Source of the DNA: Rhodobacterales bacterium
GTDB taxonomy: Bacteria; Pseudomonadota; Alphaproteobacteria; Rhodobacterales; Rhodobacteraceae
Reading direction: 5' to 3'
Assembly (NCBI GenBank): GCA_002747035.1
Contig: PDRZ01000020.1
Location: forward strand, 62,001 to 126,000
DNA: 64,000 nucleotides
Within the stretch, counting starts at the first letter, position 1. Every line of letters begins with the position of its first letter. Of the stretch, positions 6,978 to 62,242 are shown one piece after another. A model generated the notes under the pieces. The model was not told the DNA's origin. It made no database searches and saw only the letters and a program-made list of their open reading frames with translations. The position numbers and the translations under genes were made by a program.

Positions 6978-7028
6978 TAAAGCGGCTCCAGTTGCTGCCG
7001 GATCACAGCAATAGCTGGAAACACTTTA
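6978..7028. repeat. Family D 47-bp palindromic repeat on the DUF1127 stop codon
   Basis: The element spans 6980-7026, with AAGCGGCTCCAGTTGC and AGCTGGAAACACTT as partly diverged terminal repeats. TA at 6978-6979 and at 7027-7028 are the apparent target duplication. The DUF1127 stop TAA (7028-7026) is made of this TA plus the element's terminal A. It lies between the gene and its sRNAs, so it is transcribed as part of their precursor. Confidence 0.75.
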
Positions 7029-7259
7029 GTCGCGATTGCCATAGACGGCTTCGAAAGCCGCCATCCGCAGGTTGGTCCGGGACAGGCCGAGGTCGTCCAG
7101 CTCGCGTGTCGGAACACTGGCAAGTTCGGCCAGGGTCCGGCGATAGAGCCGGTATTTCGCGAACCGTTCGACCAGACCGTGGATGGCTTGGGTCAGGGCT
7201 GTAAATCCGTGGGCCGCTCCGTGGGCCGTGTCGTGCCGGGTGGTGCTTGCATAGGCCAT
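7026..7259 (-). CDS. Small DUF1127 protein, CcaF1-like, leading the CcsR transcript
   Basis: 77 residues. The C-terminal half is a DUF1127 domain: YRLYRRTLAELASVPTRELD, then DLGLSRTNLRMAAFE. In Rhodobacter sphaeroides the DUF1127 protein CcaF1 is cotranscribed with sRNAs CcsR1-4 carrying CCUCCUCCC loops and acts as an RNA-binding protein in their maturation. Here the gene is followed on the same strand by five such hairpins and a terminator, so the same locus is inferred. It is probably stress-induced (RpoH-type in Rhodobacter); I could not fix a promoter. The start is the ATG at 7259. Confidence 0.88.
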   Translation of the reverse strand: MAYASTTRHDTAHGAAHGFTALTQAIHGLVERFAKYRLYRRTLAELASVPTRELDDLGLSRTNLRMAAFEAVYGNRD

Positions 7260-7322
7260 GTGCGTGGTCCTTTGTGAATGGTGTCAGCGTTGCCGCCGTG
7301 TTTGTTGATGCCAATGTAGGGA

Positions 7323-7373
7323 AATGCTGCAGATGCACAATCCCCTCTGAAATCAATGCTGCCATGCAGCATT
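7323..7373. promoter_or_regulatory. AATGCTGC half-sites and perfect palindrome upstream of the DUF1127 gene
   Basis: AATGCTGC (7355-7362) and GCAGCATT (7366-7373) form a perfect 8-bp inverted repeat with a 3-nt spacer; a third AATGCTGC is at 7323-7330. It lies 60-115 bp upstream of the start codon and is a candidate operator. Confidence 0.45.
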
Positions 7374-7469
7374 TGCATGTCTTACCTTGGGGAAAGCTAT
7401 TGTTTACCAATATCTTACAACTTGACCTTGCGGTTAACTGTAAAAACTGCCTTTCCGGCGTATCTTTTG

Positions 7470-7562
7470 AAGCGTTCGGGCTTTAACCTGAGACAGGGAA
7501 AGGGGCGAAGGCAGCGCGACATTTATGTGTTTTTCGTGGTTCAGGTTTTTGGCAGGACGCTT
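7470..7562. repeat. Family A repeat, internally deleted copy (about 93 bp)
   Basis: It begins AAGCGTTCGGGCTTTAACCT and ends GGCAGGACGCTT, matching the copies at 26.9, 38.8, 51.2 and 56.3 kb. About 20 bp of the right-hand hairpin arm (CGCGTCCTGCC segment) is missing. Flanking TA is not preserved, so this is an older or decayed copy. Confidence 0.8.
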
Positions 7563-7690
7563 GAGGCGGGATGTAAACGGGGGCTGTGATTGAAGGTGGG
7601 GGGCGGGTCGCGTATGTCAGAGGTTCAGGCGTCTCCCGCAAATCCCGGGAATCGGGGTTTTCGTGAAACGCTTTTTGAAAGGCCAAGATC

Positions 7691-8764
7691 ATGACTGTGT
7701 CTCGCGACGATATTCTGGAGCAACTCAGCCGGCTGGAGTTGCCCGATGGGGGCAATATCGTGTCTCGTGACATGGTGCGCGCATTGATGGTTGAACCTGA
7801 CGGTGTGGTGCGGTTCGTGATCGAAGCCCCCAGCGCCGATATGGCGCGCAATATGGAACCTTTGAGGCTGGCTGCGGAACGGATTGTCGGGGGGATGCCG
7901 GGCGTTGGATCGGTGTCGGCGATTCTGACAGCCCATGGACCGACCGAACAACAGCAGCCGCCTCAATTGAAGGTGGGCCGCCATCCGACACCGCAACAGG
8001 GCAAGAGCAAGCCTGATGGGGTCAGGCGGATCCTCGCTGTGGGATCCGGCAAGGGCGGGGTGGGGAAGTCCACCGTGTCCGCCAACCTGGCCGTGGCTTT
8101 GGCGCGGGCGGGGAAAAAGGTGGGGTTGCTGGACGCAGATATTTATGGCCCCAGCCAGCCGCGCATGATGGGAGCCCATGATCGCCCCGGGATCAGCGGC
8201 GACAAGACCATTCTTCCGCCGGTGGCCCATGGGGTGACGATGATGTCCATGGGGCTGATGCTGGAGGAGGGGCAGTCCGTGGTCTGGCGCGGACCCATGT
8301 TGATGGGCGCGTTGCAGCAGATGATGGGCGAGGTGGCCTGGGGCGAACTGGACGTGTTGATCATTGATCTGCCGCCGGGCACCGGGGATGTTCAACTGAC
8401 CCTGGGTCAGAAGTTCGAGGTTGATGGGGCCATCATGGTGTCCACGCCCCAGGACGTGGCGTTGATTGATGCGCGCAAGGGGATCGACATGTTCAACAAG
8501 CTGAGCGTGCCGATCATCGGGCTGATTGAAAACATGTCGACATATATATGTCCCAACTGTGGTCACGAGGCGCATCTGTTCGGCCATGGGGGCGTGGCCG
8601 AAGAGGCGCGCAAGATCGGGGTGCCGTTGCTGGCGGAACTGCCCGTGGATCTTGAGACCCGGTTGGCCGGAGATGGAGGCACCCCGATTGCCGCGGGCGA
8701 AAGCGACGCGGCGCGGGCCTATGCGGTGCTGGCCGCGCGACTTGTGGACGCCGGGGTGGTATGA
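7691..8764 (+). CDS. apbC: Mrp/ApbC-family Fe-S cluster carrier ATPase
   Basis: Cytoplasmic P-loop ATPase of the Mrp/Nbp35 group, which carries and hands over Fe-S clusters. It is 357 residues. The N-terminal part (1-85) is a MIP18/DUF59-like domain, followed by a flexible linker to about residue 110. The deviant Walker A GSGKGGVGKS is at 118-127, and LIIDLPPGTGDVQLT is the Walker B region. CPNC (Cys287, Cys290) in MSTYICPNCGHEAHLFG is the cluster-binding motif at the dimer interface. It is monocistronic and precedes the dcw cluster by 900 bp. Confidence 0.93.
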   Translation: MTVSRDDILEQLSRLELPDGGNIVSRDMVRALMVEPDGVVRFVIEAPSADMARNMEPLRLAAERIVGGMPGVGSVSAILTAHGPTEQQQPPQLKVGRHPTPQQGKSKPDGVRRILAVGSGKGGVGKSTVSANLAVALARAGKKVGLLDADIYGPSQPRMMGAHDRPGISGDKTILPPVAHGVTMMSMGLMLEEGQSVVWRGPMLMGALQQMMGEVAWGELDVLIIDLPPGTGDVQLTLGQKFEVDGAIMVSTPQDVALIDARKGIDMFNKLSVPIIGLIENMSTYICPNCGHEAHLFGHGGVAEEARKIGVPLLAELPVDLETRLAGDGGTPIAAGESDAARAYAVLAARLVDAGVV

Positions 8765-9043
8765 CGGCCCGGAGGGGACCGCCCTGCGCCCCTGAGACAT
8801 ATGTCTGACCCAGAGGCGGCGGAGACTTCATTGCGCCCTGAAAGGGACCGCAGAGGGTTCGGTAGAGGCGTCTGTCGCGGTTCTGGTCCTTGTGCCATTG
8901 CCCGGGAGGGTGGAAACCGGAGGGCGTACGCGCCATTGGGGCTGGCTCCCGGGTTTGCGGGCATTTGAAGAAAGGTGCGGGGCAGGGGGCGTAGGGGAAA
9001 CCGTGGGACGCGGCATGGGAAATGATGGGACTTGATTGGGAGA
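8765..9043. other. Spacer without recognisable genes
   Basis: GC-rich sequence between apbC and the terminator at 9044. No frame with recognisable product, and no repeat family member, was seen. Confidence 0.55.
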
Positions 9044-9066
9044 GGGCACCGGGCGGTGCCCTTTTT
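9044..9066 (+). terminator. Rho-independent terminator after apbC
   Basis: GGGCACC and GGTGCCC form a 7-bp perfect stem with a GGGC loop, followed by TTTTT. It lies 280 bp after the apbC stop, so either apbC has a long 3' UTR or an unannotated short transcript ends here. Confidence 0.8.
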
Positions 9067-9183
9067 CATGCGAATCACATAGGGAATATGGCGGGGATAT
9101 AGGCGATTTGCCGCTGAATTCGTCAGTTTTTCTGGAAATTTTACGGCTGGGGACTTAGATACTCAGGGAATTCCCGGATTTTT

Positions 9184-9198
9184 TGGGAAATCGTGGGA
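9184..9198 (+). promoter_or_regulatory. Candidate MraZ box upstream of the dcw cluster
   Basis: TGGGA-AATCG-TGGGA: two TGGGN units separated by 5 nt, the spacing known for MraZ operators in other bacteria. It lies in an AT-rich stretch 460 bp upstream of mraZ, implying a long leader if the promoter is here. Confidence 0.5.
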
Positions 9199-9557
9199 TA
9201 TTTTTTCACCCTGTCGCGGGCTACTAAATGTAGGGGATATTGTTTCCTTTTCCACTGAGTTTGGTGCCGAATTGGCAAAAATTACCCCGATATCTTGTTT
9301 TTCAGGGGTGTGGGAAACAAGATGATGTGCATATTTCCCGTAATTTTATCTTGATTGCCATGAATTCCCATGTCATCCCTATATTCAAGATGAAGACGGG
9401 AACACAATACGGGGCACCAAACGACCCCAAACCTAAAAAATAATAAGGTTTCATACAGGCACCCTCCTTCATCGAACCAAGAGATCCGGCGCGCGGGCGA
9501 GCAGACATCCCCCCAGGTGGCGCGCGCAGCTGGACACCCCGCAACGCGGGACGAGGG
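9199..9557. other. AT-rich mraZ leader region
   Basis: Unusually AT-rich compared with the surroundings (9100-9450). It holds only short open frames without recognisable product. It probably contains the dcw promoter and 5' UTR. Confidence 0.5.
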
Positions 9558-9591
9558 CGGCGGTTGATCAGTGGCAGCAGATCAACCGCCG
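9558..9591 (+). promoter_or_regulatory. Hairpin in the mraZ leader, possible attenuator
   Basis: CGGCGGTTGATC and GATCAACCGCCG are perfect 12-bp arms with a 10-nt loop, followed by TTTCCTTTTC. It sits 70 nt before mraZ and resembles an intrinsic terminator with an interrupted T tract. Confidence 0.55.
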
Positions 9592-9661
9592 TTTCCTTTT
9601 CAAACCCCCGGGACACCAGGTGGGGCACCCGGGGCAGTAAAGTAGAGAGGGCTGCGGGACA

Positions 9662-10168
9662 GTGGCACGCAGGTTCAGAGGCGAAAGCCACCATAAGGTG
9701 GACACGAAGGGCAGGGTGAGTATCCCGGCCTCTTTTCGCCGTGTGCTTGAGGCCGGAGATCCCGACTGGACCGAAGGGTTGAACCCCAATCTGGTGATCG
9801 TTTACGGGGATCGCCGCCGCAATTTCCTTGAATGTTATACCATCGAAGCGATTGACGAGGTGGACGATCAGATCGCCGCCCTGCCGCGCGGGTCGATGGA
9901 ACGCAAGATGCTGCAACGGCTGTTTCACGGTCAATCCTTTCCCACCAACGTGGATGAAACCGGGCGGCTGGTCCTGCCGGCCAAGCTGCGCCAGAAGATT
10001 GACCTGGAGAACGAGGCGTTTTTCATCGCTGCGGGTGACACGTTCCAGATATGGAAACCCGAGACCTATGAAACCGAAGAACTGGCCCATACTGAAGAGT
10101 GGCTGGATGACCTGCCCGATGATTTTGACCCGCTGATCTATCTGGATGGCGTGAAGAAGGGGGAATGA
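9662..10168 (+). CDS. mraZ: Transcriptional regulator MraZ
   Basis: 168 residues with two SpoVT/AbrB-like repeats: HKVDTKGRVSIPASFR (residues about 11-26) and NVDETGRLVLPAKLR (about 97-111), each with the family's D-x-(K/T)GR core. It is a ring-forming DNA-binding regulator that autoregulates the dcw operon in E. coli. The start is GTG at 9662, because the first repeat begins only 10 residues in and no ATG lies nearby in frame. The stop is 4 nt before rsmH, so they are cotranscribed. Confidence 0.95.
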   Translation: MARRFRGESHHKVDTKGRVSIPASFRRVLEAGDPDWTEGLNPNLVIVYGDRRRNFLECYTIEAIDEVDDQIAALPRGSMERKMLQRLFHGQSFPTNVDETGRLVLPAKLRQKIDLENEAFFIAAGDTFQIWKPETYETEELAHTEEWLDDLPDDFDPLIYLDGVKKGE

Positions 10169-10171
10169 CTC

Positions 10172-11158
10172 ATGGCAGACATGGCCAAAGCCCCCGATGA
10201 ACGACCCCATATCCCTGTTCTTTTGCGCCCGCTTTTGCGGGCGGTTGCGCCTGTGGGGGGTGTCTGGCTGGATGGTACCTTCGGGGCGGGGGGGTATAGC
10301 CGCGCCTTGTTGGAGGCGGGGGCGGACAAGGTCATTGGCGTGGATCGCGATCCAATGGTGTTTGAGATGGCGGCAAGCTGGGCCGGGGGGTATGGCAGCC
10401 GGTTGGAATTGGTGCAGGGCACGTTTTCGCGGCTGGATGACTATGCCAGCGATCTGGATGGGGTGGTGTTGGACCTTGGGGTCAGTTCGATGCAGCTGGA
10501 CATGGCCGAGCGGGGATTTTCCTTCATGAAGGACGGGCCGCTTGATATGCGGATGAGCCAGGATGGGCCATCGGCAGCGGATATCGTGAACGGGGCGGAT
10601 GAGGGGGATATCGCGGATATTCTGTTCCGTTATGGTGAGGAGCGCGCCAGTCGCCGGATTGCACGCAATATTGTCCGGGCCCGGGAACAGGCCCCGATCA
10701 CCACCACGCTGCATCTGGCCGAGATCATCGAAAAGTCGCTGCCGCGGTCCAAGCCGGGGCAGAGCCATCCGGCGACGCGCAGTTTTCAGGCGCTGCGCAT
10801 CGCGGTGAATGACGAATATGGCGAGTTGGTGGCCGGGCTGGAGGCTGCGGAGCGGGCCCTGAAACCGGGGGGGCAGCTGGCCGTTGTCACCTTCCACTCG
10901 GTGGAAGACCGGATGGTGAAACGATTTTTCGTCGAAAAATCGGGTGGCACCGGGGGCAGCCGGTACGCGCCGGTTCAGGACCGGGTTGCGCAATTCGAGG
11001 TCAAGACCCGCAAGGCAATTGGCCCGGATGACGACGAATTGGCAGAAAACCCGCGCAGCCGGTCGGCCCGGTTGCGGGTTGGCATACGCACCGCATCCCC
11101 GGCCACGCCGGTGGATCGCAAGAAAATCGGGATGCCACAGTTGGGGGGCAAGAGGTAA
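10172..11158 (+). CDS. rsmH: 16S rRNA (cytosine1402-N4)-methyltransferase RsmH
   Basis: SAM-dependent methylation of 16S rRNA C1402 (N4). 328 residues. The SAM-binding motif I region is [20 protein letters not shown], followed by [30 protein letters not shown] and the late [14 protein letters not shown] are diagnostic of the MraW/RsmH family. It is the second gene of the dcw operon, 4 nt after mraZ. Confidence 0.97.
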
Positions 11159-11164
11159 AGGGTC

Positions 11165-11524
11165 ATGAGAAACCTGCTTTATATCGTAACATCCATGGTG
11201 GTGATCGGGCTGGCCTTCTGGGCCTATCACGAAAACTACAAGACCCAGGAAGCGGTGAGCGAGGCCGAGCGGCTGGAACGCGAGATCACCCGCGCCCGGG
11301 CGCGGCTTGCCGTTTTGAATGCGGAGTGGGCCTATCTCAACCGGCCTGACCGGTTGCGCGATCTGGCCGAAATCAACTTTCCCCGGCTGGAGCTTGGTCC
11401 CTTGAGTCCCGATCAGTTCGGGCGCGTGGACGAGGTGAGCTATCCTGTTGAAAAACCTCTTGATGTCAACGGAGCGGTGGATGTGTCGGCGCTTCCGAAC
11501 CCGCAAGAGGAGGCAGGCCAATGA
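11165..11524 (+). CDS. ftsL: Cell division protein FtsL
   Basis: 119 residues: a short cytoplasmic tail, one membrane span (LLYIVTSMVVIGLAFWAY, residues 4-21), then a periplasmic coiled coil rich in E/R/A (about 28-55). This is the usual architecture of FtsL, which forms the FtsQLB division complex. Sequence conservation in this family is low; the placement between rsmH and ftsI is decisive. Its stop overlaps the ftsI start by 4 nt (ATGA). Confidence 0.92.
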   Translation: MRNLLYIVTSMVVIGLAFWAYHENYKTQEAVSEAERLEREITRARARLAVLNAEWAYLNRPDRLRDLAEINFPRLELGPLSPDQFGRVDEVSYPVEKPLDVNGAVDVSALPNPQEEAGQ

Positions 11525-13302
11525 CCCGGATCCCGCTGCGCCCGCTGGCGCGTGTTCTTGAGGCGCGCAACAAGGGGGAAAACCCCGACGCGATCGAACG
11601 CGAAAACACCAAGCTGCGCCATGAAGACATGCGCGACAAAGCCCGCAACCGGGCCGAGGGCCGTCTTCTGGTTCTGGGCGTCATGTTCTTTTGCGCCTAC
11701 GCGGTGATCGGCGTGCGCATGGGCGTGATGGCGGGGACCGAACCGGCCGAGCCTCGCGCCCGTGCCAACGGTGCCCAGATCGTGGCGCAACGGGCCGATA
11801 TCGTGGATCGGCGGGGCCGCATTCTGGCCACCAACCTGGAAACCCACAGTCTTTATGCCCAGCCGCCCCATATGATCGACCGCGAGCATGTGGCGGACGA
11901 GTTGGTCAGAATTTTCCCCGATCTGGATCGCGCGCGGTTGATCAGGGATTTCACTGGTAAGCGCAAGTTCCTGTGGATCAAGAAGAAAATCAGCCCGGAA
12001 CAGAAACAGGCGGTGCATGACATCGGCGATCCTGGCCTGTTGTTTGGTCCCCGTGAAATGCGGCTTTATCCCAACGGCAGGCTGGCGGCACATATTCTTG
12101 GCGGGGCCTCGTTTGGCCGCGAAGGGGTGGACGCGGCCGAAGTGGTGGGCGTGGCCGGGGTGGAAAAGGTGTTTGACAGCTATCTGCGTGACCCGGCCAA
12201 AGGCGGCAAGCCGCTGCAGCTTTCGCTTGACCTGACGGTACAGGCGGCTTCCGAGCGGGTGCTTTACGGCGGAATGCGATTGATGAAGGCCAAGGGCGCG
12301 GCCAGCGTGTTGATGGACGTGCATACGGGCGAGGTGATCAGCGTCGTGAGCCTGCCCGACTTTGACCCCAACGACCGTCCCCGCCCCCCAACCGAGGGTG
12401 CCCCCGATGACAGCCCTCTGTTTAATCGCGCGGCCCAGGGGGTGTACGAGCTTGGCTCGACGTTCAAGATTTTCACTGCCGCCCAGGCGATGGAGCTTGG
12501 CCTGGTCAATGCCAATACCATGATCAACACCAAGGGGCCGTTGCGCTGGGGCAAACACAAGATCCGGGATTTTCACAATTACGGCAAAGAGTTGAGTGTT
12601 CACAAGGTGATTGTGAAATCCTCCAACATCGGCACCGCACGGATGGCGCAGATGATTGGCAGCAAACGCCAGCGCGAGTTTCTGGATTCCATGGGGCTGC
12701 TGGAACGCACCCCGCTTGAAATCCTGGAATCGCGCGGCTCGACCCCGTTGCTGCCGAAAAACTGGTCCGAGATTTCGACCATGACCATCTCTTACGGTCA
12801 CGGGATCAGCGTCAGCCCGCTGCATCTTGCCGCCGGGTATGCGGCGATCGCCAATGGCGGCACACGGATCAATCCGACGCTGATCAAGCAGGATGGGCCG
12901 CAATACGGGCCGCGGGTGATGCGGGCCGAAGTTGCCGCCGCATCACGCGCCATGTTGCGTGCGGTTGTGACCGAAGGCACGGCCAGCTTTGGCGAGGTCA
13001 AGGGATACGCGGTGGGCGGCAAAACCGGCACAGCAGACAAGCCCAAGCCGCGCGGTGGCTATTACAAGGACAAGGTCATTGCCACCTTTGCCAGCATGTT
13101 CCCGGCCTATGACCCGAAATACGTGCTGATCGTGACGCTGGATGAGCCCGAAACCTTTATCGCCGGGGAAACCCGGCGCACGGCGGGGTGGACGGCGGTG
13201 CCGGTGGCCGCCGAGATGATCCATCGCGTTGCGCCCCTGCTGGGCCTGCGTCCACAAGTTGAACCCGGGCAATTGGCTGGTATAACGCTGACATCGAACT
13301 GA
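11521..13302 (+). CDS. ftsI: Septal peptidoglycan transpeptidase FtsI (PBP3)
   Basis: 593-residue bitopic penicillin-binding protein that cross-links septal peptidoglycan. A membrane span lies near residues 50-68 (LVLGVMFFCAYAVIGVRMG) after a charged cytoplasmic tail. The dimerisation domain starts with QRADIVDRRGRILATNLE. Transpeptidase motifs: STFK with catalytic Ser313, SSN at 367-369 and KTGT at 501-504. It overlaps ftsL by ATGA and is spaced 29 bp from murE. Confidence 0.97.
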   Translation: MTRIPLRPLARVLEARNKGENPDAIERENTKLRHEDMRDKARNRAEGRLLVLGVMFFCAYAVIGVRMGVMAGTEPAEPRARANGAQIVAQRADIVDRRGRILATNLETHSLYAQPPHMIDREHVADELVRIFPDLDRARLIRDFTGKRKFLWIKKKISPEQKQAVHDIGDPGLLFGPREMRLYPNGRLAAHILGGASFGREGVDAAEVVGVAGVEKVFDSYLRDPAKGGKPLQLSLDLTVQAASERVLYGGMRLMKAKGAASVLMDVHTGEVISVVSLPDFDPNDRPRPPTEGAPDDSPLFNRAAQGVYELGSTFKIFTAAQAMELGLVNANTMINTKGPLRWGKHKIRDFHNYGKELSVHKVIVKSSNIGTARMAQMIGSKRQREFLDSMGLLERTPLEILESRGSTPLLPKNWSEISTMTISYGHGISVSPLHLAAGYAAIANGGTRINPTLIKQDGPQYGPRVMRAEVAAASRAMLRAVVTEGTASFGEVKGYAVGGKTGTADKPKPRGGYYKDKVIATFASMFPAYDPKYVLIVTLDEPETFIAGETRRTAGWTAVPVAAEMIHRVAPLLGLRPQVEPGQLAGITLTSN

Positions 13303-13331
13303 CAACAGTGACAACAAGGTGAGCGTATTCC

Positions 13332-19471: not shown

Positions 19472-19891
19472 GGGGGGAGTTTAGCGGTTTGGTCACCTTC
19501 GTAAACGGGGGGCATGGCGAGGACGGGCCGGGGGTGACATTTGCGCATCCTTGCGGCACCAGGCCGGCACCGCCGCGCTGCGGCATGTGTTAAGGATTGG
19601 TTAGGTTAATCGGGCGTGCGGTGGGGTGATACGGCGCCGGTGCGCGCCAGATGCGGGGCATCTGGCAGTTGGTGAGGCGGCGCGCAACAGCGGGGCGTGC
19701 CCGACCCCGAGGGGGTATCTTTCGGGGATTGCTTTGCAAGCACCTGTTGATCAATGGCGAGCGACCCGGACCGCAAGTGGTCCGGGGAAAACCAAGGGAT
19801 GCGTGATAGCGTCACTCTTGTTCAGGATGTGTTGAGTGGGGGATCAATTATTGATAGGCGGCTACCGATAGCAAGTTCTGGGGAACGCTTT
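19472..19891. other. Spacer with two small hairpins
   Basis: No recognisable gene. GCCAGATGC/GCATCTGGC (19646-19666) and CCGGACC/GGTCCGG near 19773 form short hairpins. The frame of the next gene is open from 19754, but this part does not look coding. Confidence 0.5.
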
Positions 19892-20506
19892 ATGGAAATA
19901 CTGTTGTTTATCGGATTGATCGTGGGGGCCGCGTTTTTTGTAAACAGCTTTGCCGGTAGCAATCAGGGAAAACCGACACCCCGCGTAAGCAACCGGGGGA
20001 CGACAGGGGTAGGCAAAAAAACACCGGCAAAAAACGGCCCCCACAACAACTGGGGACTTTCAAATCCTTCGAATCAAATTGAAGCTATATCAAAGGTGAA
20101 CTTTGAACGGGTGAGGATTCTTAACAAATCTGAATACCGGGTTTTTGTCGCTTTGGAGAAGATTGTCGAAAACCTCGGCGATGGGCACCGGGTGTTGGCG
20201 CAAACCAGTTTGGGGGAGTTGATTAAACCAGATAGCAAATCCGGTGATTGGAAGGAGCGGAAAGCGGCCTTTGCGTCGATCAATTCAAAACGTTTGGATT
20301 TCGCAGTGATCGACAAGTTTGGGTTGCTCACCGTTGCAGTCGAATATCAAGGCAAAGGACATCATCAGGATAAAGCCTTCGCCAGAGATGCAGTCAAGCG
20401 AGAGGCTTTGAGACGGGCCGGGGTTCCAATGATTGAAGTGGCCAAAGGAACGATGCCGAGTGAGTTGAGGGCGGAGATTGCAAAATACATTGATCCGCAG
20501 GGCTAA
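19892..20506 (+). CDS. DUF2726 membrane-anchored nuclease-like protein
   Basis: 204 residues from the ATG at 19892. A membrane span (EILLFIGLIVGAAFFVNSF) is followed by a basic, polar linker (25-70) and a C-terminal DUF2726 domain. Features of the restriction-endonuclease-like fold are visible: RLDFAVIDKFG, AVEYQGKGHH and KREALRRAGVPMIEV. The function is not known. Base composition is clearly less GC-rich than the neighbours, suggesting horizontal acquisition. The stop codon TAA coincides with the left edge of a family D repeat. Confidence 0.75.
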   Translation: MEILLFIGLIVGAAFFVNSFAGSNQGKPTPRVSNRGTTGVGKKTPAKNGPHNNWGLSNPSNQIEAISKVNFERVRILNKSEYRVFVALEKIVENLGDGHRVLAQTSLGELIKPDSKSGDWKERKAAFASINSKRLDFAVIDKFGLLTVAVEYQGKGHHQDKAFARDAVKREALRRAGVPMIEVAKGTMPSELRAEIAKYIDPQG

Positions 20507-20554
20507 AGCGTTTCCAGTTCTTGCCGTGATCCAACAATAACTGGAAACGCTTTA
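20504..20554. repeat. Family D 47-bp palindromic repeat on the DUF2726 gene stop codon
   Basis: The element spans 20506-20552. AAGCGTTTCCAGTT and AACTGGAAACGCTT are perfect 14-bp terminal inverted repeats. TA at 20504-20505 and 20553-20554 flanks it. The stop TAA is TA plus the first A of the element; excision with one TA leaves GGC-TAA-GAT, again a stop. Confidence 0.85.
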
Positions 20555-20610
20555 AGATGGGCGGCGAAACACTTTGTCAAAGCGTCGCAATCATGAACGT
20601 GCTTTGCGGC

Positions 20611-20820
20611 TCATTCGGCTTCTTCTTCAACGCGCTCGCAGAAAAACCAAAGCAAAAGCGCGGCCAAGAACGGATTGATAAACAACGCAGAGATTTGCCA
20701 CAGCAAGCGATCCTGACCACGCCGTTCGGCTATGTCACCGACCCATGTAAACAGTATCCAGATAAACCCAAGGCTGATCAAGATGTACAAAAGGGTGAGA
20801 ATGACACGGATTTCATCCAT
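20611..20820 (-). CDS. Small two-span membrane protein downstream of parE
   Basis: 69 residues, two hydrophobic segments (about 5-27 and 44-62: ISALFINPFLAALLLWFFC) and an acidic tail ERVEEEAE. It lies 30 bp after the parE stop on the same strand with a GGAGAG site upstream. I do not recognise the family; resemblance to phospholipase-D-nuclease-N-like or YuzD-type small membrane proteins is too weak to name it. Confidence 0.55.
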   Translation of the reverse strand: MDEIRVILTLLYILISLGFIWILFTWVGDIAERRGQDRLLWQISALFINPFLAALLLWFFCERVEEEAE

Positions 20821-38751: not shown

Positions 38752-38912
38752 GCGTTTCCAGTTCTTGCTGTGATTTAAAGCGTTCGACCTTTCACCTGAG
38801 ACAGGGAAAAGGGCGAAGGCAGCGCGACATCTATGTGTTTCGCGCGTCCTGCCGAAAACCCGTGAGTCAGGTTTTGGGCAGGACGCTTTAACAATAACCG
38901 GAAATGCTTTAG
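38752..38912. repeat. Family D palindrome split by a family A insertion
   Basis: Left GCGTTTCCAGTTCTTGCTG to GATT (38752-38775), right ACAATAACCGGAAATGCTTT (38891-38910). Removing the insert and one TA gives GATTTAACAATAACC against GATCCAACAATAACT in the intact copy at 20506-20552. Confidence 0.85.
38778..38888. mobile_element. Family A element, 111 bp, inserted with TA duplication
   Basis: AAGCGTTCGACCTTTCACCT to GGCAGGACGCTT. TA at 38776-38777 and 38889-38890. The right half can fold as GCGTCCTGCC paired with GGCAGGACGC; the left half folds less perfectly through GCGTTCG and CGAAGGC. No coding capacity. Confidence 0.85.
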
Positions 38913-51148: not shown

Positions 51149-51263
51149 TAAAGCGTCCTGCCAAAACCCTGAATCACGGGTTTTTGGCAGGATGCGTGAA
51201 ACACATAAATGTCGCGCTGCGTTCGCTCTTTCCCCTGTCTCAGGTTAAAGGGCGAACGCTTTA
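51149..51263. mobile_element. Family A element (111 bp) inserted on the doxX stop codon
   Basis: Element 51151-51261 in reverse orientation: AAGCGTCCTGCC to GGGCGAACGCTT; TA at 51149-51150 and 51262-51263. On the minus strand the doxX stop is TA (target) plus the first A of the element. Removing the element and one TA leaves GGG-TAA-GGA, so the stop existed before the insertion, and the convergent genes were then only a few bases apart. Confidence 0.85.
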
Positions 51264-51821
51264 CCCATTCGGGCTGGTCCGGCGTGACAGGAGGCGGTCA
51301 AGCGACAGAGGCCCTGCGCCCTTGACCACCAGCAGCAACAGAAGAAACACCCAAAACGCCCGTTGATCCAGGAGCAGCGCATCGGAATGGCGGTCAAACC
51401 ACGCGCCCACGGTTTCGATATGGTCCCATCCGCCATGGCCGTAAAGGTCGGTCAGGGATTGCACCATGGTAAAGCCGATCATGCCAAGCGCGGCCAGCCG
51501 GGTGAACAGGCCAAGCGCGATTTGCAGTGGCAAAACAAATTCGGCAATCGTACCGCCCGTGACCACGACCCGGTGGAAAAGTGACAATTGGCTGCTGTCA
51601 TAGCCGACCGCTTCGAACGCTTTTGGGAAAATCTGGGCATAGGCCCCCGTGGAGGGTGAGAGGATGCCGAACACCCCATCGCCAAGCTTGGTCAGGCCCG
51701 AGTTCCAGAAATAGACCATCAACACCGCCGCAAACACGAACCTCGCGAGTGTGGGCAGCAGCGGGGACAGTTTTTCGACCTTTTCGAAGGTCGCATTATG
51801 AAGAGAAATCAGGCTGTTCAT
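51261..51821 (-). CDS. DoxX-family membrane protein of the bufferin operon
   Basis: 186 residues, four spans of the DoxX type: FVFAAVLMVYFWNSGLTKLG, TGGTIAEFVLPLQIALGLFT, LAALGMIGFTMVQSLTDLYG and FWVFLLLLLVVKGAGPLSLD. DoxX proteins often end bufferin (BufABC, also HvfABCD) operons, perhaps supporting maturation or export. The start overlaps the bufC stop by ATGA. Confidence 0.88.
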   Translation of the reverse strand: MNSLISLHNATFEKVEKLSPLLPTLARFVFAAVLMVYFWNSGLTKLGDGVFGILSPSTGAYAQIFPKAFEAVGYDSSQLSLFHRVVVTGGTIAEFVLPLQIALGLFTRLAALGMIGFTMVQSLTDLYGHGGWDHIETVGAWFDRHSDALLLDQRAFWVFLLLLLVVKGAGPLSLDRLLSRRTSPNG

Positions 51822-53491: not shown

Positions 53492-53500
53492 CGTTTTGAA

Positions 53501-53971: not shown

Positions 53972-53996
53972 GGGCGCCCGAACAGATCGGACGCCC
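53972..53996 (-). terminator. Terminator downstream of thrS
   Basis: On the minus strand GGGCGTCCGA pairs with TCGGGCGCCC (one G-U), 5-nt loop, followed by TTTCATGTGTTTTC. It lies 43 nt after the thrS stop. Confidence 0.58.
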
Positions 53997-54038
53997 CAAT
54001 GTTTCCCCCAAGGGAATGTTACAGTTTTCGCCGCGATG

Positions 54039-55997: not shown

Positions 55998-56039
55998 CTG
56001 TGGCAAGCTCCTCGTCAGTTTGGCGCCCACGGAACGCCC

Positions 56040-56254
56040 GGTTGCGGGTATATGGTTCGGGCCGTGTTCTGCGCCTTTGGCCCAGGTAAGTCAAGGCAGG
56101 AGCCGGGGACGTACGGGTTTGAGTACCCCGGGGTTTTGGGCAGGTTGGTGCCGGTTGGTTTCGGGCTGGTTTCAGGGGGGGGATATTGAGAAGGGTAAAG
56201 ACCGGGGGTGCGGGACAAAACAGACCTTCCGGGTTTGCGCAGCAGGTCTGTTTC
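56040..56254. other. Spacer upstream of thrS
   Basis: GC-rich, with no recognisable gene. It probably holds the thrS promoter. Together with the family A repeat and the 110 bp that follow it forms a gap of about 480 bp. Confidence 0.45.
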
Positions 56255-56368
56255 TAAAGCGTTCGACCTTTCACCTGAGACAGGGAAAAGAGCGAAGGCA
56301 GCGCGACATTTATGTGTTTCGCGCGTCCTGCCAAAACCCGTGAGTCAGGTTTTTGGCAGGACGCTTTA
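56255..56368. mobile_element. Family A element, 110 bp, with TA duplication
   Basis: Element 56257-56366: AAGCGTTCGACCTTTCACCT to GGCAGGACGCTT. TA at 56255-56256 and 56367-56368. Nearly identical to the copy at 38778-38888, suggesting recent spread. Confidence 0.85.
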
Positions 56369-56478
56369 GATTTCCACTGTTCGGACTGACCCTCACCGGG
56401 GCGCTTAGTTTGGCTCGCGATACAGAACTTCGGTAAGCGAAGGTGCGTGTGAGGCGATAGGGGGCGCGCGCCCCCAAC

Positions 56479-58104
56479 TCAGATCCGCATACGCGGCACG
56501 TCATGGGGGTCGAGGTGCAGTTCGATCAGCGCAGGACCCGAGGTGTGGCCGCGCAGGGTTTCGATGGCGACCTCAAGATCGGCGTCCGAGCGGACCTCTA
56601 ATCCGATCCCGCCAAGCGCGGTGGCGGCGGCGGCGAAGCTGGGCCACTGAAAGACCGATAGCGAGGGGTCCATCTTGCGGTCCAGAAACTGGATATGCTC
56701 CGCGCCATAGGCCGCGTCATTGGCCACGATCACGGTCAGGTTCAGCCCCATGCGCACGGCGGTGTTGAATTCGTTGATCCCCCCCATCATGAACCCGCCA
56801 TCGCCGGTAAACAGAACCGTGGGGCGGTTGGGGTCGGCGACGGCTGCGCCAATTGCTTCTTGCAGGCCCAGCCCGATAGAGCCGAAATTCACCGTAGGCA
56901 CAAAGCTGTGCGGATCCGGGACCGAGATGCGGCACCAGGCTTCGGTCATGAACCGCCCGCCATCGGTACAGACGATGCGATCCTTGGGAAACAGGGCCTC
57001 CAGCTGTTCCAGCGCATGGACGAAGTTGATGCAGCCTTCGGCCGTCTTGTTGGGGCCAACCGGGTGGGTGGTCAGGTCCGTGCTGTCAATGTCGCGGGTA
57101 AAGCCGCTGGCGGGAATTTCGGCTTCGTTCAGCCAGTAAAGAATGGTTTCGGCGGTCAGCCCGGCATCGGCGATCAGCGCCGCGTCGGGATGCAGCCCGC
57201 CGCCAATGGCCGAGGGTTCGATATCGACCTGGATGATCCGTTTGCCGGTCATCAGCTTGCCATTGTCGGTGGTGAAATCATGCAGCGCCGCGCCGAAACA
57301 GAGGATGCAATCGGTCGCGGCGATCAGGTCATAGGCGGCTGGCGTGGACAGGGTGCCGAATATGTCGATGTTATAGGGGTGGTCATTGAACAGGCCCTTG
57401 GCTTTGAGCGTGGTGGCCAGCGGGGCCTCTAGCCGGTCGGCCAGGCGGATCAGTTGTTCCCGCGCCGCCACGGCCCCAAGCCCGGCAAGGATCAGCGGAC
57501 GGCGGGCCGAGGCGATCATGCCGATGGCATTGTCCAGCGTTTCGCCTTCGGCCACGCCGCCAGGGGTGGTGAAGACGTCCAGCACATGTTTCTCATGTAC
57601 CGTTTTCTCCCACATCATATCGGCGGGCATGTTCAATACGATGGGGCGGCGTTCCACCTGTGCACGGTAAAAGGCGCGGGCCACGTCCGTGGACGCCGAT
57701 GCGGGCGAGCGGAGCTGTTCAAACCCGGCACCGCTGGCCTTGATCACTTCGCGCTGGTCGATGCCCTGAACGTGGCGGGGATTATCGACGGGCGTATCCC
57801 CCGCCAAAAGCACCATGGGCATGTGGCCGCGCACGCCTTCGGTCAGCGCGGTCATGCAATTGGTCAGCGCCGGGCCGTGGGTGACGGTGGCAACGCCCAG
57901 CTTGCCCGACACATGGGTATAGGCCAGAGCCATGAGAACCGAGCTGCCTTCATGGGCCGCCGGGATAAACGTGCCCTCGCAGTCACGCACATAGGAATCA
58001 ACCATGAACAGGTTCGCATCCCCCATCAGGCCAAACAGGGTGTCCACGCCTTGATCGGCAAGGGCGCGGGCAAGGGATTGGTGTACATGGATTTCTTCGG
58101 TCAT
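56479..58104 (-). CDS. Thiamine-pyrophosphate-dependent enzyme of the acetolactate-synthase family
   Basis: 541 residues from the ATG at 58104. The catalytic Glu is in FIPAAHEGSSVLMALAY, the central domain has LILAGLGAVAAREQLIRLAD, and the TPP/Mg motif is VLFTGDGGFMMGGINEFNTA. The overall layout is that of ilvB-like decarboxylases or carboligases. No small regulatory subunit (ilvN) is adjacent, so classical branched-chain synthesis is unlikely. Substrate unknown. Confidence 0.85.
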   Translation of the reverse strand: MTEEIHVHQSLARALADQGVDTLFGLMGDANLFMVDSYVRDCEGTFIPAAHEGSSVLMALAYTHVSGKLGVATVTHGPALTNCMTALTEGVRGHMPMVLLAGDTPVDNPRHVQGIDQREVIKASGAGFEQLRSPASASTDVARAFYRAQVERRPIVLNMPADMMWEKTVHEKHVLDVFTTPGGVAEGETLDNAIGMIASARRPLILAGLGAVAAREQLIRLADRLEAPLATTLKAKGLFNDHPYNIDIFGTLSTPAAYDLIAATDCILCFGAALHDFTTDNGKLMTGKRIIQVDIEPSAIGGGLHPDAALIADAGLTAETILYWLNEAEIPASGFTRDIDSTDLTTHPVGPNKTAEGCINFVHALEQLEALFPKDRIVCTDGGRFMTEAWCRISVPDPHSFVPTVNFGSIGLGLQEAIGAAVADPNRPTVLFTGDGGFMMGGINEFNTAVRMGLNLTVIVANDAAYGAEHIQFLDRKMDPSLSVFQWPSFAAAATALGGIGLEVRSDADLEVAIETLRGHTSGPALIELHLDPHDVPRMRI

Positions 58105-58333
58105 CGGGCAAGGTCCTGTTATTTCACGGTTCAGAGCAGCATAGCGCATACCGGGTGCGGAGGGTGCGTGTTTATTGGGTGGATTGTGGGTGCGTGTGCG
58201 GGAAAATTTAAAAAATACAGGTTTTTGCGCGTAAATTGTGCGTCGCTGGTGTTGGCGCATTGAGGAGTTGTGGTGCCCGGTCAGGCCCGGCATGATGCGG
58301 CGGAATCACTGGCGAGAACGGGGAACACAGAAC

Positions 58334-59080
58334 ATGGGCGCAACCTATCTTGAGACGGAACAGGGCCGGCGGATCGCCTTTCATCAAACCGGGGGCGAGG
58401 GGCCGTGCGTTCTTTTCCTTGGTGGGTTGAAGTCGGATATGGAAGGCACCAAGGCGATTGCGCTGGAAGACTGGGCCAAGGCGCGGGGGCGGGCGTTTTT
58501 GCGCATGGATTATTCCGGGCATGGTATGTCGTCAGGTGCCTTCGAAGAGGGAACGATCGGGGACTGGCACGAAGATGTGCTGGCCGTTGTGGACCGGGTG
58601 ATCACGGGGCCGATCCTGGTGGTCGGGTCGTCCATGGGCGGCTGGCAGGCGCTGTTGCTTGCCCGGGCACGGCCCGAGCGGATCATGGGCATGGTCACCA
58701 TCGCCGCCGCGCCGGATTTCACCGAAGACGGGTATTGGGCCACGTTCACCGATGCGCAAAAGGCGGCGTTGGACAGCGTCGGGCATGTGGAGTTGCCCAG
58801 CGATTACATGGAGCCCTATATCATCACGAAACGGCTGATCGAAGATGGGCGCAGGCGGCTGGTGTTGCGCGATCCGCTGCCCTTGCCGTTCCCGGTGCGG
58901 TTCCTGCAAGGCACCGAGGATACCGCCGTTTCAACAGAAACCGCCATACGTCTGTTGGACCATTGCGCGGGCGAAGACGTGCGGTTGACCCTTGTCAAAG
59001 GGGCGGATCACCGGTTTTCAGACGCGGCCTGTTTGCAGTTGATCGAAAACTCCGTGGAAACGGTATTGAGCCGGGGCTGA
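58334..59080 (+). CDS. Alpha/beta hydrolase (ABHD10-like)
   Basis: 248 residues from the ATG at 58334. Nucleophile elbow GSSMGG (Ser100), acid in LQGTEDTAVS, His in KGADHRFSD. VLFLGGLKSDMEGTKAIALE is typical of ABHD10-like thioesterases and esterases. The first of three alpha/beta hydrolases in 3.5 kb on this strand, but not an evident operon. Confidence 0.85.
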   Translation: MGATYLETEQGRRIAFHQTGGEGPCVLFLGGLKSDMEGTKAIALEDWAKARGRAFLRMDYSGHGMSSGAFEEGTIGDWHEDVLAVVDRVITGPILVVGSSMGGWQALLLARARPERIMGMVTIAAAPDFTEDGYWATFTDAQKAALDSVGHVELPSDYMEPYIITKRLIEDGRRRLVLRDPLPLPFPVRFLQGTEDTAVSTETAIRLLDHCAGEDVRLTLVKGADHRFSDAACLQLIENSVETVLSRG

Positions 59081-59190
59081 ACTCTTTGACCTGCATGGGG
59101 CGGTCTCGGCCCCGCCGCAGGGGCTGAAACGTCGTGTTTCATGCTTTTGGCCGAAGGCCGTAGAAACCCCGGGACAGAGGGAGGCGGGCC

Positions 59191-60171
59191 ATGCGTGCAT
59201 TCGGGAAATGGCTGGGGCGGGGGCTGATCGGGCTGGCGGTGTTGATCAGCCTTGTCTGGTTTTTTGGGCGCGAACCCGTGGACGTGGCGGCGAGGTTCGA
59301 GCCGCGCCGGTTTGGCGAAGGGGTGCAGGTTTATTTCGAAACCGTGGAAGCGCGGTTCGACGATATCACTTCGGGCACCCAAAAGCGGGTGATCTGGGCC
59401 GGGCAGGCCGAAACGCGCACCCCGGTTTCGGTGCTTTATATTCATGGGTTTTCGGCCACGTCCGAGGAAATCCGCCCGGTGCCCGACCGGGTGGCGGCGG
59501 TTTTGGGGGCCAATCTGATCTATACCCGTCTCGCGGGCCATGGGCGGGGCAGCGCGGCGATGGCAGAGCCCCGGGTCAGCGACTGGATGGCGGATGTGGC
59601 CGAGGCGCTGGCGGCGGCGCGCGCGGTGGGAGAGAATGTGATCGTGCTCGCCACCTCGACCGGCGGGACGTTGATGGCCGAGGCGGCGCTGCAACCTGAG
59701 CTGTCAAAGGGGGTGCGCGGCATCGTGTTCCTGTCGCCCAATTTCGGCGTGAATGACCCCAATGCCCATCTGTTGACGCTGCCCGGAATGCGGTATCTGT
59801 TGCCGGTGCTGGTGGGGGCAGAGCACAGTTGGGCCGCGATGAACGAGGCGCAGGCTAAATACTGGACCACACGCTATCCGGTTGCGGCGATGATCCCCAT
59901 GGCGGCGCTGGTCAAACACGCAGTGGCACAGGATTATTCCGGGGTGTCCATCCCGGCGTTGTTCTATTTTTCGGACAGGGATCAGGTGGTGCGGGCCGAG
60001 GCCACGCGGGCCATCGCGGCGCGCTGGGGCGGCGGGGCGCGTGTTGTGCCCCTGCCCGAGGGAGCCGAGGTTGGGGAGACCGCCCACGTGATCGCGGGAG
60101 ACATCGTGGCACCGGGCAATACCGAGGCGGCCATCGCGGTGATTCTGGACTGGGCGGCAGGCGTATTGTAA
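59191..60171 (+). CDS. Membrane-anchored alpha/beta hydrolase
   Basis: 326 residues. An N-terminal membrane anchor (LIGLAVLISLVWFFG) is followed by a long linker; the hydrolase starts at VSVLYIHGFSATSEEIRPVP. Nucleophile ATSTGG with Ser156 (a GxSxG variant, Ala in first place), acid in YFSDRDQVV, His in TAHVIAGD. Envelope-facing esterase or lipase; substrate unknown. 110 bp after the previous hydrolase. Confidence 0.83.
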   Translation: MRAFGKWLGRGLIGLAVLISLVWFFGREPVDVAARFEPRRFGEGVQVYFETVEARFDDITSGTQKRVIWAGQAETRTPVSVLYIHGFSATSEEIRPVPDRVAAVLGANLIYTRLAGHGRGSAAMAEPRVSDWMADVAEALAAARAVGENVIVLATSTGGTLMAEAALQPELSKGVRGIVFLSPNFGVNDPNAHLLTLPGMRYLLPVLVGAEHSWAAMNEAQAKYWTTRYPVAAMIPMAALVKHAVAQDYSGVSIPALFYFSDRDQVVRAEATRAIAARWGGGARVVPLPEGAEVGETAHVIAGDIVAPGNTEAAIAVILDWAAGVL

Positions 60172-60275
60172 TGAGATGCGGTCCGGTGCGGTCCGGTGCG
60201 GGCAGTGCAGGGGTTTTGCGTGACCTGCCATTCCGGCCCGTTGGGCGGCAGTTATCGGTGAAGGAGAAGTAAACC

Positions 60276-60701
60276 ATGGAGCAACGTGTTTCCCTGATCA
60301 CCCTTGGGGTGGCTGACATGGCACGGTCCTCGGGGTTTTACGAGGCGCTGGGGTGGCAACGGGTCGAGTCCCAGGATGGGGTGGTGGCTTTTGATCTGAT
60401 TGGTCAGACGCTTGGTCTTTACCCCCGCGACAAGCTGGCCGAGGATATGGGCGTGCCGGTTGAGGCGCTGGGGCATGGTGGTATGACCCTGTCGTATAAT
60501 GTACGCGACAAGGCGGAGGTGGCCCGTGTGATCGACGCCGCCCGTAGCGCCGGGGCGAGGGTGTTGAAAGAGGCGGCGGATGTGTTCTGGGGCGGGCATC
60601 ACGGGTATTTTGCCGACCCGGACGGACATGTGTGGGAGGTGGCGCATAACCCGTTCTCGGGGCTGCGCGAAGACGGGGCGTTTCGGTGGAACGGGTATTG
60701 A
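60276..60701 (+). CDS. VOC-superfamily (glyoxalase/bleomycin-resistance fold) protein
   Basis: 141 residues, two VOC repeats: SLITLGVADMARSSGFYEAL and GHGGMTLSYNVRDKAEVARV, ending with YFADPDGHVWEVAHNP. The metal-ligand pattern is incomplete (no His at the usual first position), so the enzyme activity is unclear. GGTGAAGGAGAAG precedes the ATG. Confidence 0.83.
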   Translation: MEQRVSLITLGVADMARSSGFYEALGWQRVESQDGVVAFDLIGQTLGLYPRDKLAEDMGVPVEALGHGGMTLSYNVRDKAEVARVIDAARSAGARVLKEAADVFWGGHHGYFADPDGHVWEVAHNPFSGLREDGAFRWNGY

Positions 60702-60820
60702 GGCGGGCGGGAGCTGCTCGCCAGCCCTTACAGGCTGTCTCGCTTGGGCGGTGCCATGCGTAAACTGGTGAGCATGTGGCACCTTGTGACGCTGGGTCGT
60801 GTGCGGTTATCGCGCATTTT
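60702..60820. other. Spacer after the VOC gene
   Basis: No recognisable gene or terminator. With the family B repeat and the 220 bp after it this gap is about 440 bp. Confidence 0.4.
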
Positions 60821-60926
60821 TATAGCCAAACGACACAATTGTGATTGTGCCTTTTGACTATAAGGCTTTGATTTTACGCTGATGCTTTGTGGGTTTTGGG
60901 ATCAAAATCCACTCCCGTCAGCTATA
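60821..60926. repeat. Family B repeat, 102 bp plus flanking TA
   Basis: Element 60823-60924: TAGCCAAACGACACAATTG to CCCGTCAGCTA; TA at 60821-60822 and 60925-60926. The internal palindrome (TAGCCAAACGACACAAT and ATTGTGCCTTTTGACTA, imperfect) and the left-to-right order are as at 6506-6610. Confidence 0.82.
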
Positions 60927-61145
60927 CATGCGCGAGTTGTCCCGCCGCAGGATATCCGCATATATCGCACCGAAAGGCATGTTGCTGCGGGCCGGAGATG
61001 AGCCGGGGGGAAGAAGGCGCGCAGGATTGCGGATTTCCCCCTTTTCGCGGGATAATCCATCCCTGACGTCAAGGCGGTGGTTGACGCCGCCGTGCAAGAT
61101 GCGAAGCTGGGCCAACCCGAGATGCCATAAAGGAATCCCCACGAT

Positions 61146-61856
61146 ATGATCGAACCTCTTGTGTTGATCCCCGGCATGATGTGTGACGCCCGGCTCTACG
61201 CCCCGCAAATCGACGTCATGAGCCGCGAGATGGGGGTCATGGTGGCCCCGGCGACCGTGGGAGAGCGGATCGAGGAGATCGCCTCGAACATCCTGACCAT
61301 GGCCCCTGCCAAATTTGCGCTGGCTGGGTTGAGCATGGGGGGGATCATCGCCATGGAGATCCTGCGCCGCGCCCCCGACCGGGTGACCCGGATCGCGCTT
61401 TTGGATACCAATCCGTTGGCCGAAACGCCACAAAGCGCGGCCGCCTATGAGCCGATGATCGTCGGGGTCAAAGCGGGGCGGCTGGATGATGTGATGCGCG
61501 GGTTCATGAAGCCCGATTACCTTGCCCCCGGACCGCGACGGATGGAGGTTCTGGCGCTGATGTCGCAGATGGCGGCGGATATGGGCGAGGCGGTCTTTCT
61601 GCGCCAGATCAGGGCGTTACAGCGACGCCGGGATCAACAGGTGGTATTGCGCCGTTGCAAGGTGCCGGCGCTGGTGATGTGTGGGGCCTATGACGGGTTG
61701 ACCCCGGTCAAACGGCATCAGTTCATGGCCGAGCTGATCCCCTATGCCCGGCTGGAGGTCATCGAGGACGCGGGCCATGTGCCCACGCTGGAGGCGCCCG
61801 AGGCAACCACGGCGGCGTTGCGCACGTGGATGAAGCAGCCCCTTGTGCTGCAATAA
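61146..61856 (+). CDS. Alpha/beta-fold hydrolase
   Basis: 236 residues. Nucleophile elbow GLSMGG (Ser63), acid in GAYDGLTPV, His in IEDAGHVPTLE. PLVLIPGMMCDARLY is the beginning of the hydrolase core. No lid segment stands out. The next gene starts within its stop codon (TAATG). Confidence 0.87.
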   Translation: MIEPLVLIPGMMCDARLYAPQIDVMSREMGVMVAPATVGERIEEIASNILTMAPAKFALAGLSMGGIIAMEILRRAPDRVTRIALLDTNPLAETPQSAAAYEPMIVGVKAGRLDDVMRGFMKPDYLAPGPRRMEVLALMSQMAADMGEAVFLRQIRALQRRRDQQVVLRRCKVPALVMCGAYDGLTPVKRHQFMAELIPYARLEVIEDAGHVPTLEAPEATTAALRTWMKQPLVLQ

Positions 61857-62089
61857 TGCCGCCCGGGCGTGATCTGAAGCCGCAACTGGCCCGGTTGCAG
61901 GCGTGGAGCCGTCGTCATATTCCCCGGGGGCTTCGGCTTGTGGCCGGGCTTTTGTTGATGATCGGCGGCGTTTTCGGGTTCCTGCCCATTCTGGGGTTCT
62001 GGATGATCCCGTTGGGCGTGGCCGTGGCCGCGTTGGATGTGGTGCCGTTGTGGCGCTGGATCAGGGCGCGTTTTGGGGGGCGCAAATGA
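61856..62089 (+). CDS. Small membrane protein coupled to the hydrolase
   Basis: 77 residues from the ATG at 61856, which shares a base with the preceding stop. One or two spans (LRLVAGLLLMIGGVFGFLPI, LGFWMIPLGVAVAALDVVPL), with basic ends. Family not recognised with confidence. Translational coupling suggests that it is real. Confidence 0.65.
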   Translation: MPPGRDLKPQLARLQAWSRRHIPRGLRLVAGLLLMIGGVFGFLPILGFWMIPLGVAVAALDVVPLWRWIRARFGGRK

Positions 62090-62161
62090 AACGGATCGTG
62101 TTGATCACCCATGAGCTTTGGCCGTGGCAGGACAGGAAATCCAATTGAGGTGAGCGCGCTT

Positions 62162-62193
62162 TAAAGTGTTTCCGCACAACATATCAGCAGTGC
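62162..62193. repeat. Half of a family C repeat
   Basis: TAAAGTGTTTCCGCACAAC matches the family C left end. The right end is missing, where a family D copy begins. Possibly a truncated copy or another junction. Confidence 0.5.
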
Positions 62194-62242
62194 AGGCGTT
62201 TCCAGCTATTGCTGTGATCCAACAATAAATGGAAACGCTTTA
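62194..62242. repeat. Family D 47-bp repeat on the stop codon of the 62240-62797 gene
   Basis: AGGCGTTTCCAGCTATTGC to AATGGAAACGCTT, element 62194-62240, TA at 62241-62242. The left TA is not visible (GC). The stop TAA of the minus-strand gene is this TA plus the terminal A of the element. Confidence 0.78.

Follow-up and report, generated by a model that had tools for sequence, protein, structure and literature searches.

RUP, a 107-bp repeat with 108 copies in Streptococcus pneumoniae and IS630-Spn1 as its proposed mover, is a close described counterpart of the short palindromic repeats that we analyzed in a 64-kb window (the whole stretch of 64,000 nucleotides under study, from a Rhodobacterales bacterium) and in related genomes: both are of similar size, have short terminal inverted repeats, insert at TA, are non-coding, reach about a hundred copies and insert into one another (PMC2229807, PMC10969869). 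In the parts drawn on here, neither of those two papers speaks of elements that reside exactly on stop codons (PMC2229807, PMC10969869), and our repeats differ from RUP in internal sequence and host group, in being two-hairpin units with several unrelated arm families, and in that no partner insertion sequence was found. Correia/NEMIS of Neisseria and ERIC of enterobacteria are likewise TA-flanked miniature inverted-repeat transposable elements (MITEs); according to the same source, Correia sits mainly upstream of genes and its transcripts are cut by RNase III, and ERIC copies occur at gene 3' ends (PMC10969869). These families have other hosts and other terminal repeats. ISY100, of the IS630/Tc1-mariner type, duplicates a TA target (PMC2170065), and in Coxiella burnetii the MITE QMITE2 lies at the 3' end of enhC and adds a C-terminal tail in one strain, a single gene example in the part of the paper cited, as against a genome-wide habit here (PMC5896051). 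Unlike IS630 and ISY100, the elements in our genomes lack a transposase, and our search turned up no IS630 copy that shares their ends. REP elements with RAYT make no target duplication and have a RAYT gene in the genome; in target duplication, the feature compared here, our repeats differ from them, as they duplicate TA. Judged by titles and abstract openings, our literature searches yielded no description of these repeats or of stop-codon residence as a general property of bacterial MITEs.

We find that the repeats are TA-duplicating non-autonomous MITEs, RUP- and Correia-like, without a transposase and in many copies, and that in the window they sit exactly on the stop codons of four genes. 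A sequence-only reading of the window had proposed that each of these stops is a TA completed by the first A of the element, and this can be read directly at all four. It had also stated that excision restores an in-frame TAA at the first three sites; virtual excision of the element plus one TA did so there and at the fourth site too (4/4). On the element side, TA is followed by AAGCG at three of the junctions and by AAGTG at 7028. The features are as follows.

6978..7028, minus strand: D element, one hairpin of 51 bp that has TA at either end and lies on the DUF1127 stop codon; excision leaves an in-frame TAA.
7026..7028, minus strand: stop TAA of the DUF1127 gene (PF06568, E 1.1e-10), formed by the target TA and the A of the element.
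7026-7241, minus strand: DUF1127 gene, its extent, including the start, as translated.
20504..20554, plus strand: D element of 51 bp with 16-bp palindromic arms.
20504..20506, plus strand: stop TAA of the DUF2726 gene (19754-20506).
51149..51263, minus strand: A element of 115 bp, two hairpins and a linker.
51261..51263, minus strand: stop TAA of the DoxX gene (51261-51821).
62162..62242, minus strand: truncated composite element of 81 bp, consisting of a D hairpin, the linker and a remnant of the second hairpin.
62240..62242, minus strand: stop TAA of the DUF6151 gene (62240-62797).
38776..38890, plus strand: A element of 115 bp, at a TA within a degraded D element and off any stop.
56255..56368, plus strand: A element of 114 bp, intergenic and off any stop.
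6613..6660, plus strand: B-type single hairpin with one end decayed, excluded from the tests.

The estimate that four of ten or so copies lie on stops held for the four but not for the ten, as six window elements have both TA ends (those at 6978, 20504, 38776, 51149, 56255 and 62162), which makes the proportion 4/6. An Rfam scan of the window returned a tRNA at 3441-3512 as its sole match.

Insertion on existing stops that leaves the protein unchanged, as the same reading had claimed, was borne out within one species and between congeners. In Aliiroseovarius crassostreae, two of eight plasmids (strains S204 and S056) carry a 115-bp element with the same ends on the stop of putA, together with one extra TA, and the other six (S128, S212, S202, S044, S051 and S137) have the putA locus without the element and with a single TA; filled or empty, all eight encode the identical PutA end ...LLAQAS followed by TAA. 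Similarly, two convergent genes in G082 share a TAG stop in one CTAG, and an element fills that TA in its congener G010, where one gene now ends in TAA and the other gains YSISGLH before a TGA. The element is absent from all five congeners whose junctions were compared with the G010 locus; in G086 the left gene has its TAG at the same place and the right gene ends further off, and in three others the gene ends at the junction look different. Thus, relatives show the elements as inserted sequence, with a single TA in empty sites and a TA on both sides in filled ones.

Alternatively, the elements could truncate genes near their 3' ends and create the stop, no existing stop having been hit. Insertion in frame does yield TAA whenever T occupies codon position 1, but several results make this very improbable. 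The base after TA is mostly a purine, so that in-frame sites are already TAR stops; 48 of the 50 G010 genes that enter an element at its LEFT end do so in the stop phase; and the last residues of putA are the same with and without the element. Furthermore, fetched relatives of DoxX and DUF6151 end within 6 residues of the window positions in 31 of 32 cases: 19/19 for DoxX (33 genomes had a match), two of them with stops at aligned positions 184 and 183, and 12/13 genomes for DUF6151, where the stop falls 1-5 residues beyond that of the window, the remaining one lying 14 residues beyond. The C terminus of the DUF2726 protein looks natural because its Pfam match runs almost to the end of the profile (to residue 244 of 250 and profile position 125 of 126). 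As far as these alignments can tell, the window stops lie near natural places, the DoxX and DUF6151 relatives being too distant to provide exact empty sites.

To count stops genome-wide, we used three sets of elements. The source assembly (G000; 2.52 Mb, 47 contigs, 77.7% complete) contains TAAAGCGTTTC 151 times compared with 4 times for the reversed control, so the repeat ends are not there by chance. Across 60 other genomes of the same family only G010 (70) and G009 (31) were well above control, followed by G061 with 10 versus 5. Stretches of G000 were fetched around the listed end matches and around matches of two covariance models, amounting to 862 of 2524 kb including the window; the census is partial, covering 100 of the 151 TAAAGCGTTTC places, with scores for 150 of 1133 candidates from one model and for 150 of 554 from the other. 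It gave 114 raw end pairs and, after removal by hand of 11 nested or doubtful pairings, 103 elements, copies with one end lost being excluded from the counts. Genes were called with our own dicodon model on virtually excised DNA, with no annotation used, and 96 of the 103 elements were classified (for the other seven, the TA is common to two elements or the end of a piece is no more than 300 bases away). Of the 70 left ends in G010, 56 were used; the 14 left out comprised 4 for which no right end was recognised and 10 that lacked a right TA. A pattern scan of named genomes, allowing 102-127 bp, matched at least 106 stretches, which gave 107 elements with 102 distinct sequences of 105-118 bp; here and below, figures for this set hold among the matches listed.

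Stops were in excess in every set. The 96 classified sites of G000 comprised 30 stops (16 TAG and 14 TAA), 64 intergenic sites and 2 coding sites, so that stops made up 30/94 of the occupied non-coding TA sites versus 292/3690 of the unoccupied ones (odds ratio 5.45, P 4.6e-11). For G010 the counts were 40 stop, 15 intergenic and 1 coding (n=56; stops 40/55 of non-coding sites), and for the named genomes 30, 66 and 8 of 104 classified sites (stops 30/96 of non-coding sites), with 5 of the 30 stop sites common to two genes. Treating all non-coding TA sites as equal, the expected numbers of stops were 8.1 (G000), 12.7 (G010) and 8.3 (named genomes). In the comparison of stop TA sites with random TA sites on which the earlier proposal hinged, stops were thus above expectation, with 30 observed versus 8.1 expected in the source genome.

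The flanks of the target account for much of this excess. A pyrimidine before and a purine after the TA (Y-TA-R) was found at 205 of 245 occupied non-coding sites in the three sets pooled compared with 1597 of 7574 unoccupied ones, and C followed TA at 1% of occupied sites versus 21%. Since TAA and TAG have a purine after TA and the genomes are GC-rich, stops form a large share of the Y-TA-R sites outside genes. When flank bases were matched, the expected stop counts rose to 15.1 (G000), 25.6 (G010) and 14.9 (named genomes), and when location was matched as well (within 120 nucleotides (nt) 3' of a stop) they reached 24.6, 32.5 and 22.1, versus 30, 40 and 30 observed (P 0.08, 0.002 and 0.02). 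With a 60-nt window P was 0.13, 0.016 and 0.07, the expected counts being 25.9 for G000 and 24.3 for the named genomes, and for G000, taking every window tried, the matched P spanned 0.02 (250 nt) to 0.18 when all called genes were used and 0.09 to 0.44 under stricter gene sets. Most of the stop excess is thus explained by the Y-TA-R target together with survival chiefly on the 3' side of genes; a modest residue is left, and machinery that senses stops is not needed. A preference for stop codons as such, as first proposed, was not upheld in that form: the preference is for Y-TA-R. The original wording, that insertion favours TA inside stops, is best replaced by the statement that it favours Y-TA-R, that copies survive 3' of genes and that an end beginning with A rebuilds the stop.

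We consider it likely that these repeats are Rhodobacterales MITEs moved in trans to Y-TA-R, with A-first ends that rebuild stops and with survival at stops. A transposase acting in trans, presumably of the IS630/Tc1-mariner type, would insert the elements at TA with a strong preference for Y-TA-R (CTAG, CTAA and TTAA) and duplicate the TA. TAA and TAG stops count among such sites if C or T comes before them, and would be what is left over once coding and promoter insertions are lost; because of that loss, stops would become a very common surviving site. As the terminal repeat starts with A, insertion into the TA of a stop would give TA plus A and keep the stop in place, as observed at the filled sites, and an end starting with T would give TA plus T, destroy the stop and append a short tail, as likewise observed; orientations that destroy the stop are rarer at stops, most likely through purging by selection. 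The TA duplication, the target preference, the empty sites and the presence or absence of the element within a species are all direct observations. Such a combination of a target motif supplied by stops and a first base that rebuilds them would be a simple route by which a mobile element becomes nearly harmless.

Occupied sites are rare in called genes and close to starts. At the non-coding rate, 129.8 coding insertions were expected in G000 and 71.5 in G010, versus 2 and 1 observed, and the named genomes had 8 of 104; within 30 nt 5' of a start, none of the 475 intergenic TA sites of G000 was occupied where 9.8 were expected. The neighbourhood of occupied stops was also biased. In G010 the next gene was convergent rather than tandem at 38:8 occupied stops compared with 30:28 unoccupied ones (P 0.0017), and the ratios were 11:7 versus 77:123 in G000 (P 0.08) and 19:13 versus 89:120 in the named genomes (P 0.09). 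This bias would also be expected if the hairpin were useful at stops, as a terminator or as a protector of the mRNA 3' end, so that copies were retained there. Folding of six sequences taken from five elements predicted a strong RNA hairpin in each (z -4.1 to -8.0), and an orientation lean at other 3' sites in G010, described below, would count in the same direction. However, purging of harmful operon insertions predicts the convergent bias equally well, orientation is unbiased in G000, and the one element scanned for an intrinsic terminator, which is a GC-rich hairpin with a T tract after it, had no terminator-like site (20450-20620). We therefore regard usefulness of the hairpin as an improbable reason for the stop residence.

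Weighing against the account of trans-mobilised MITEs at Y-TA-R are a residual excess of stops, an orientation lean that extends beyond stops, a mild bias in how the G010 set was picked, and the outcome of the search for a parent element. The residue was estimated by logistic regression on the three sets together, with flanking bases, distances and the set itself as covariates and intergenic TA sites 0-59 nt 3' of a stop as reference. It gave an odds ratio of 1.65 for stops (confidence interval (CI) 1.13-2.40, P 0.01), so motif and location may not be all. The excess that survives matching would fit a machinery that favours stops as such, through termination or 3'-end complexes or through a longer gene-end motif, and so would G010 by itself (odds ratio 3.75, CI 1.21-11.6, P 0.02) and its orientation lean, which is alike at stops and at other 3' sites. 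We nevertheless hold this explanation to be unlikely. The single-set intervals for G000 (odds ratio 1.67, P 0.10) and the named genomes (1.46, P 0.21) include 1, the matched tests of these two sets gave the modest P values reported above, the third flank base carries no signal, and residual confounding from our own gene calls and the distance bins is likely. The stronger version, a stop-codon-homing transposon whose machinery actively selects termination sites beyond Y-TA-R and survival and points the stop-rebuilding end at the gene, seems to us improbable as well.

Orientation bears on selection in the favoured account. In G010 the LEFT end of the element rebuilds TAA, and the usual RIGHT end reads TAT and appends a 7-residue tail. 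Among 66 G010 elements with both ends located, a stop lay at the LEFT end only in 34, at the RIGHT end only in 4 and at both in 14 (34:4, P 6e-7). The lean to LEFT recurred at non-stop 3' sites (8 LEFT, 1 RIGHT, P 0.04), which weakens the case for stop-keeping selection, and picking the G010 set by a perfect left end introduces a mild bias to stop-keeping ends, as full-length copies without such an end exist outside the set. In G000, where both ends give TAA, orientation at stops was even (A 5:4, D-B 3:3, with 15 others not oriented). A TAA or TAG had been regained by 4 of 18 G010 RIGHT ends that face a stop gene compared with 1 of 48 otherwise (P 0.017). Moreover, we inspected 26 loci from other species of the G010 genus that were not picked by perfect ends. 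Eleven had no recognisable end, two had no species label and three genes entered the element in other phases; all eight stop-phase ends (L194, L196, L203, L205, L208, L213 and L219 twice) read TAA or TAG. The G010 orientation suggests selection that preserves the stop, and the corresponding half of the original claim stands in part: this orientation and the convergent-gene bias speak for it, the LEFT lean at non-stop sites against it. With some ends restoring the stop and others not, the family offers a natural experiment on the strength with which bacteria protect the last residues of their proteins.

The search for a parent element was partial, and in it, with the source genome 77.7% complete, no insertion sequence with these ends was found. 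Around the four PF13358 matches in G000, nearby ends of this type came only from the short repeats themselves, and G009 and G010 had no PF13358 match. Within the G010 genus 3 of 22 genomes matched: for the copy in G073 no inverted repeats emerged at the threshold applied, and the other two loci yielded a single 7-base CGCTTTA, inside the matched gene of L252. Long elements with these ends numbered four pairs in 2.3 Mb of fetched DNA, none of them transposase-like by translation (no family search was made). Two candidate partners were rejected. An IS630 fragment in L126 is interrupted by the element and so is a target: a D-B element lies inside an IS630-type transposase gene, with an in-frame TAG (L126:1288-1402, equal to G000:C6:70139-70253). 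L128 holds half a B hairpin beside IS630 debris. Insertion into insertion-sequence remnants has likewise been reported for RUP. IS630 reportedly transposes preferentially to TA in 5'-CTAG-3', and this, known to us only by the title of a paper that PMC2170065 cites, fits the Y-TA-R preference. On these sequence comparisons we do not claim membership in an IS630-driven family: TA duplication and the CTAG/Y-TA-R preference would agree with it, but shared ends were not found.

The elements themselves vary around one plan. Ends of the TAAAGCG...CGCTTTA type define the 103 elements of G000 and the 107 others, the ends being the search criterion, and the 103 measure 48-127 bp, too short for a transposase. 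The main unit in G000 is about 115 bp long, with some 24 bases of linker between its two hairpins, and its ends read TA followed by AAGCGTTTC or near variants. We aligned 17 copies of the D-B composite, one of which (L003:9810-9925) has different arms, and 7 copies of family A (mean identity 96%). D and B are also present as single hairpins, 51 and 49 bp long, respectively. For one D-B copy we worked out the products of internal deletion: 51 bp would remain if its two GGAAACGC repeats were the endpoints, and 49 bp if its two GCGTTTCC repeats were. Given these matching lengths, the 51- and 49-bp hairpins, including both D elements of the window, are most likely internal deletions between direct repeats of the 115-bp unit. 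The family in G010 is another one, 93 bp long, that shares the left end. Nested insertions obey the same TA rule. In two places (G000:C25:50536-50764 and G000:C34:123041-123209) tandem elements share one TA, so that the second element apparently targeted the terminal TA of the earlier one. Length was 115 or 116 bp in 85 of the 107 named-genome elements, across genera (L298-L403) and despite differing arms, which is near 11 helical turns and may reflect a constraint of the transposition complex.

Elements of this kind can mislead the annotation of protein C termini. By our own open-reading-frame scoring, twelve G010 genes (loci L133-L190, for example L151:9614-9706) end in a tail encoded by the RIGHT end, YSISGL followed by one further residue, and such YSISGLH-type tails could pass in annotation for a shared C-terminal motif.

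All but three of the 80 titles listed for named genomes name Rhodobacterales taxa, many of them Roseovarius, Aliiroseovarius, Celeribacter and Pelagivirga, genera that we take to belong to this order. Occurrence in many Rhodobacterales genera together with polymorphism within a species makes the family directly testable. An exact D/B-type pattern had no match in the named genomes (records near the source genome may be left out), and the plasmids searched contained no match to either of the two query elements, one from G010 and one of the D-B type. A 115-bp element was also seen on contigs of metagenome-assembled genomes labelled Planctomycetota (L327) and Verrucomicrobia (L329), for which contamination of the bins is likelier than spread between phyla. 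Finally, a Roseibium aggregatum plasmid (L405:1501-1611), from outside Rhodobacterales (Hyphomicrobiales), carries, at a distance of 7 bases from the 3' terminus of an SDR gene, a related element that is 71% identical to that of A. crassostreae.

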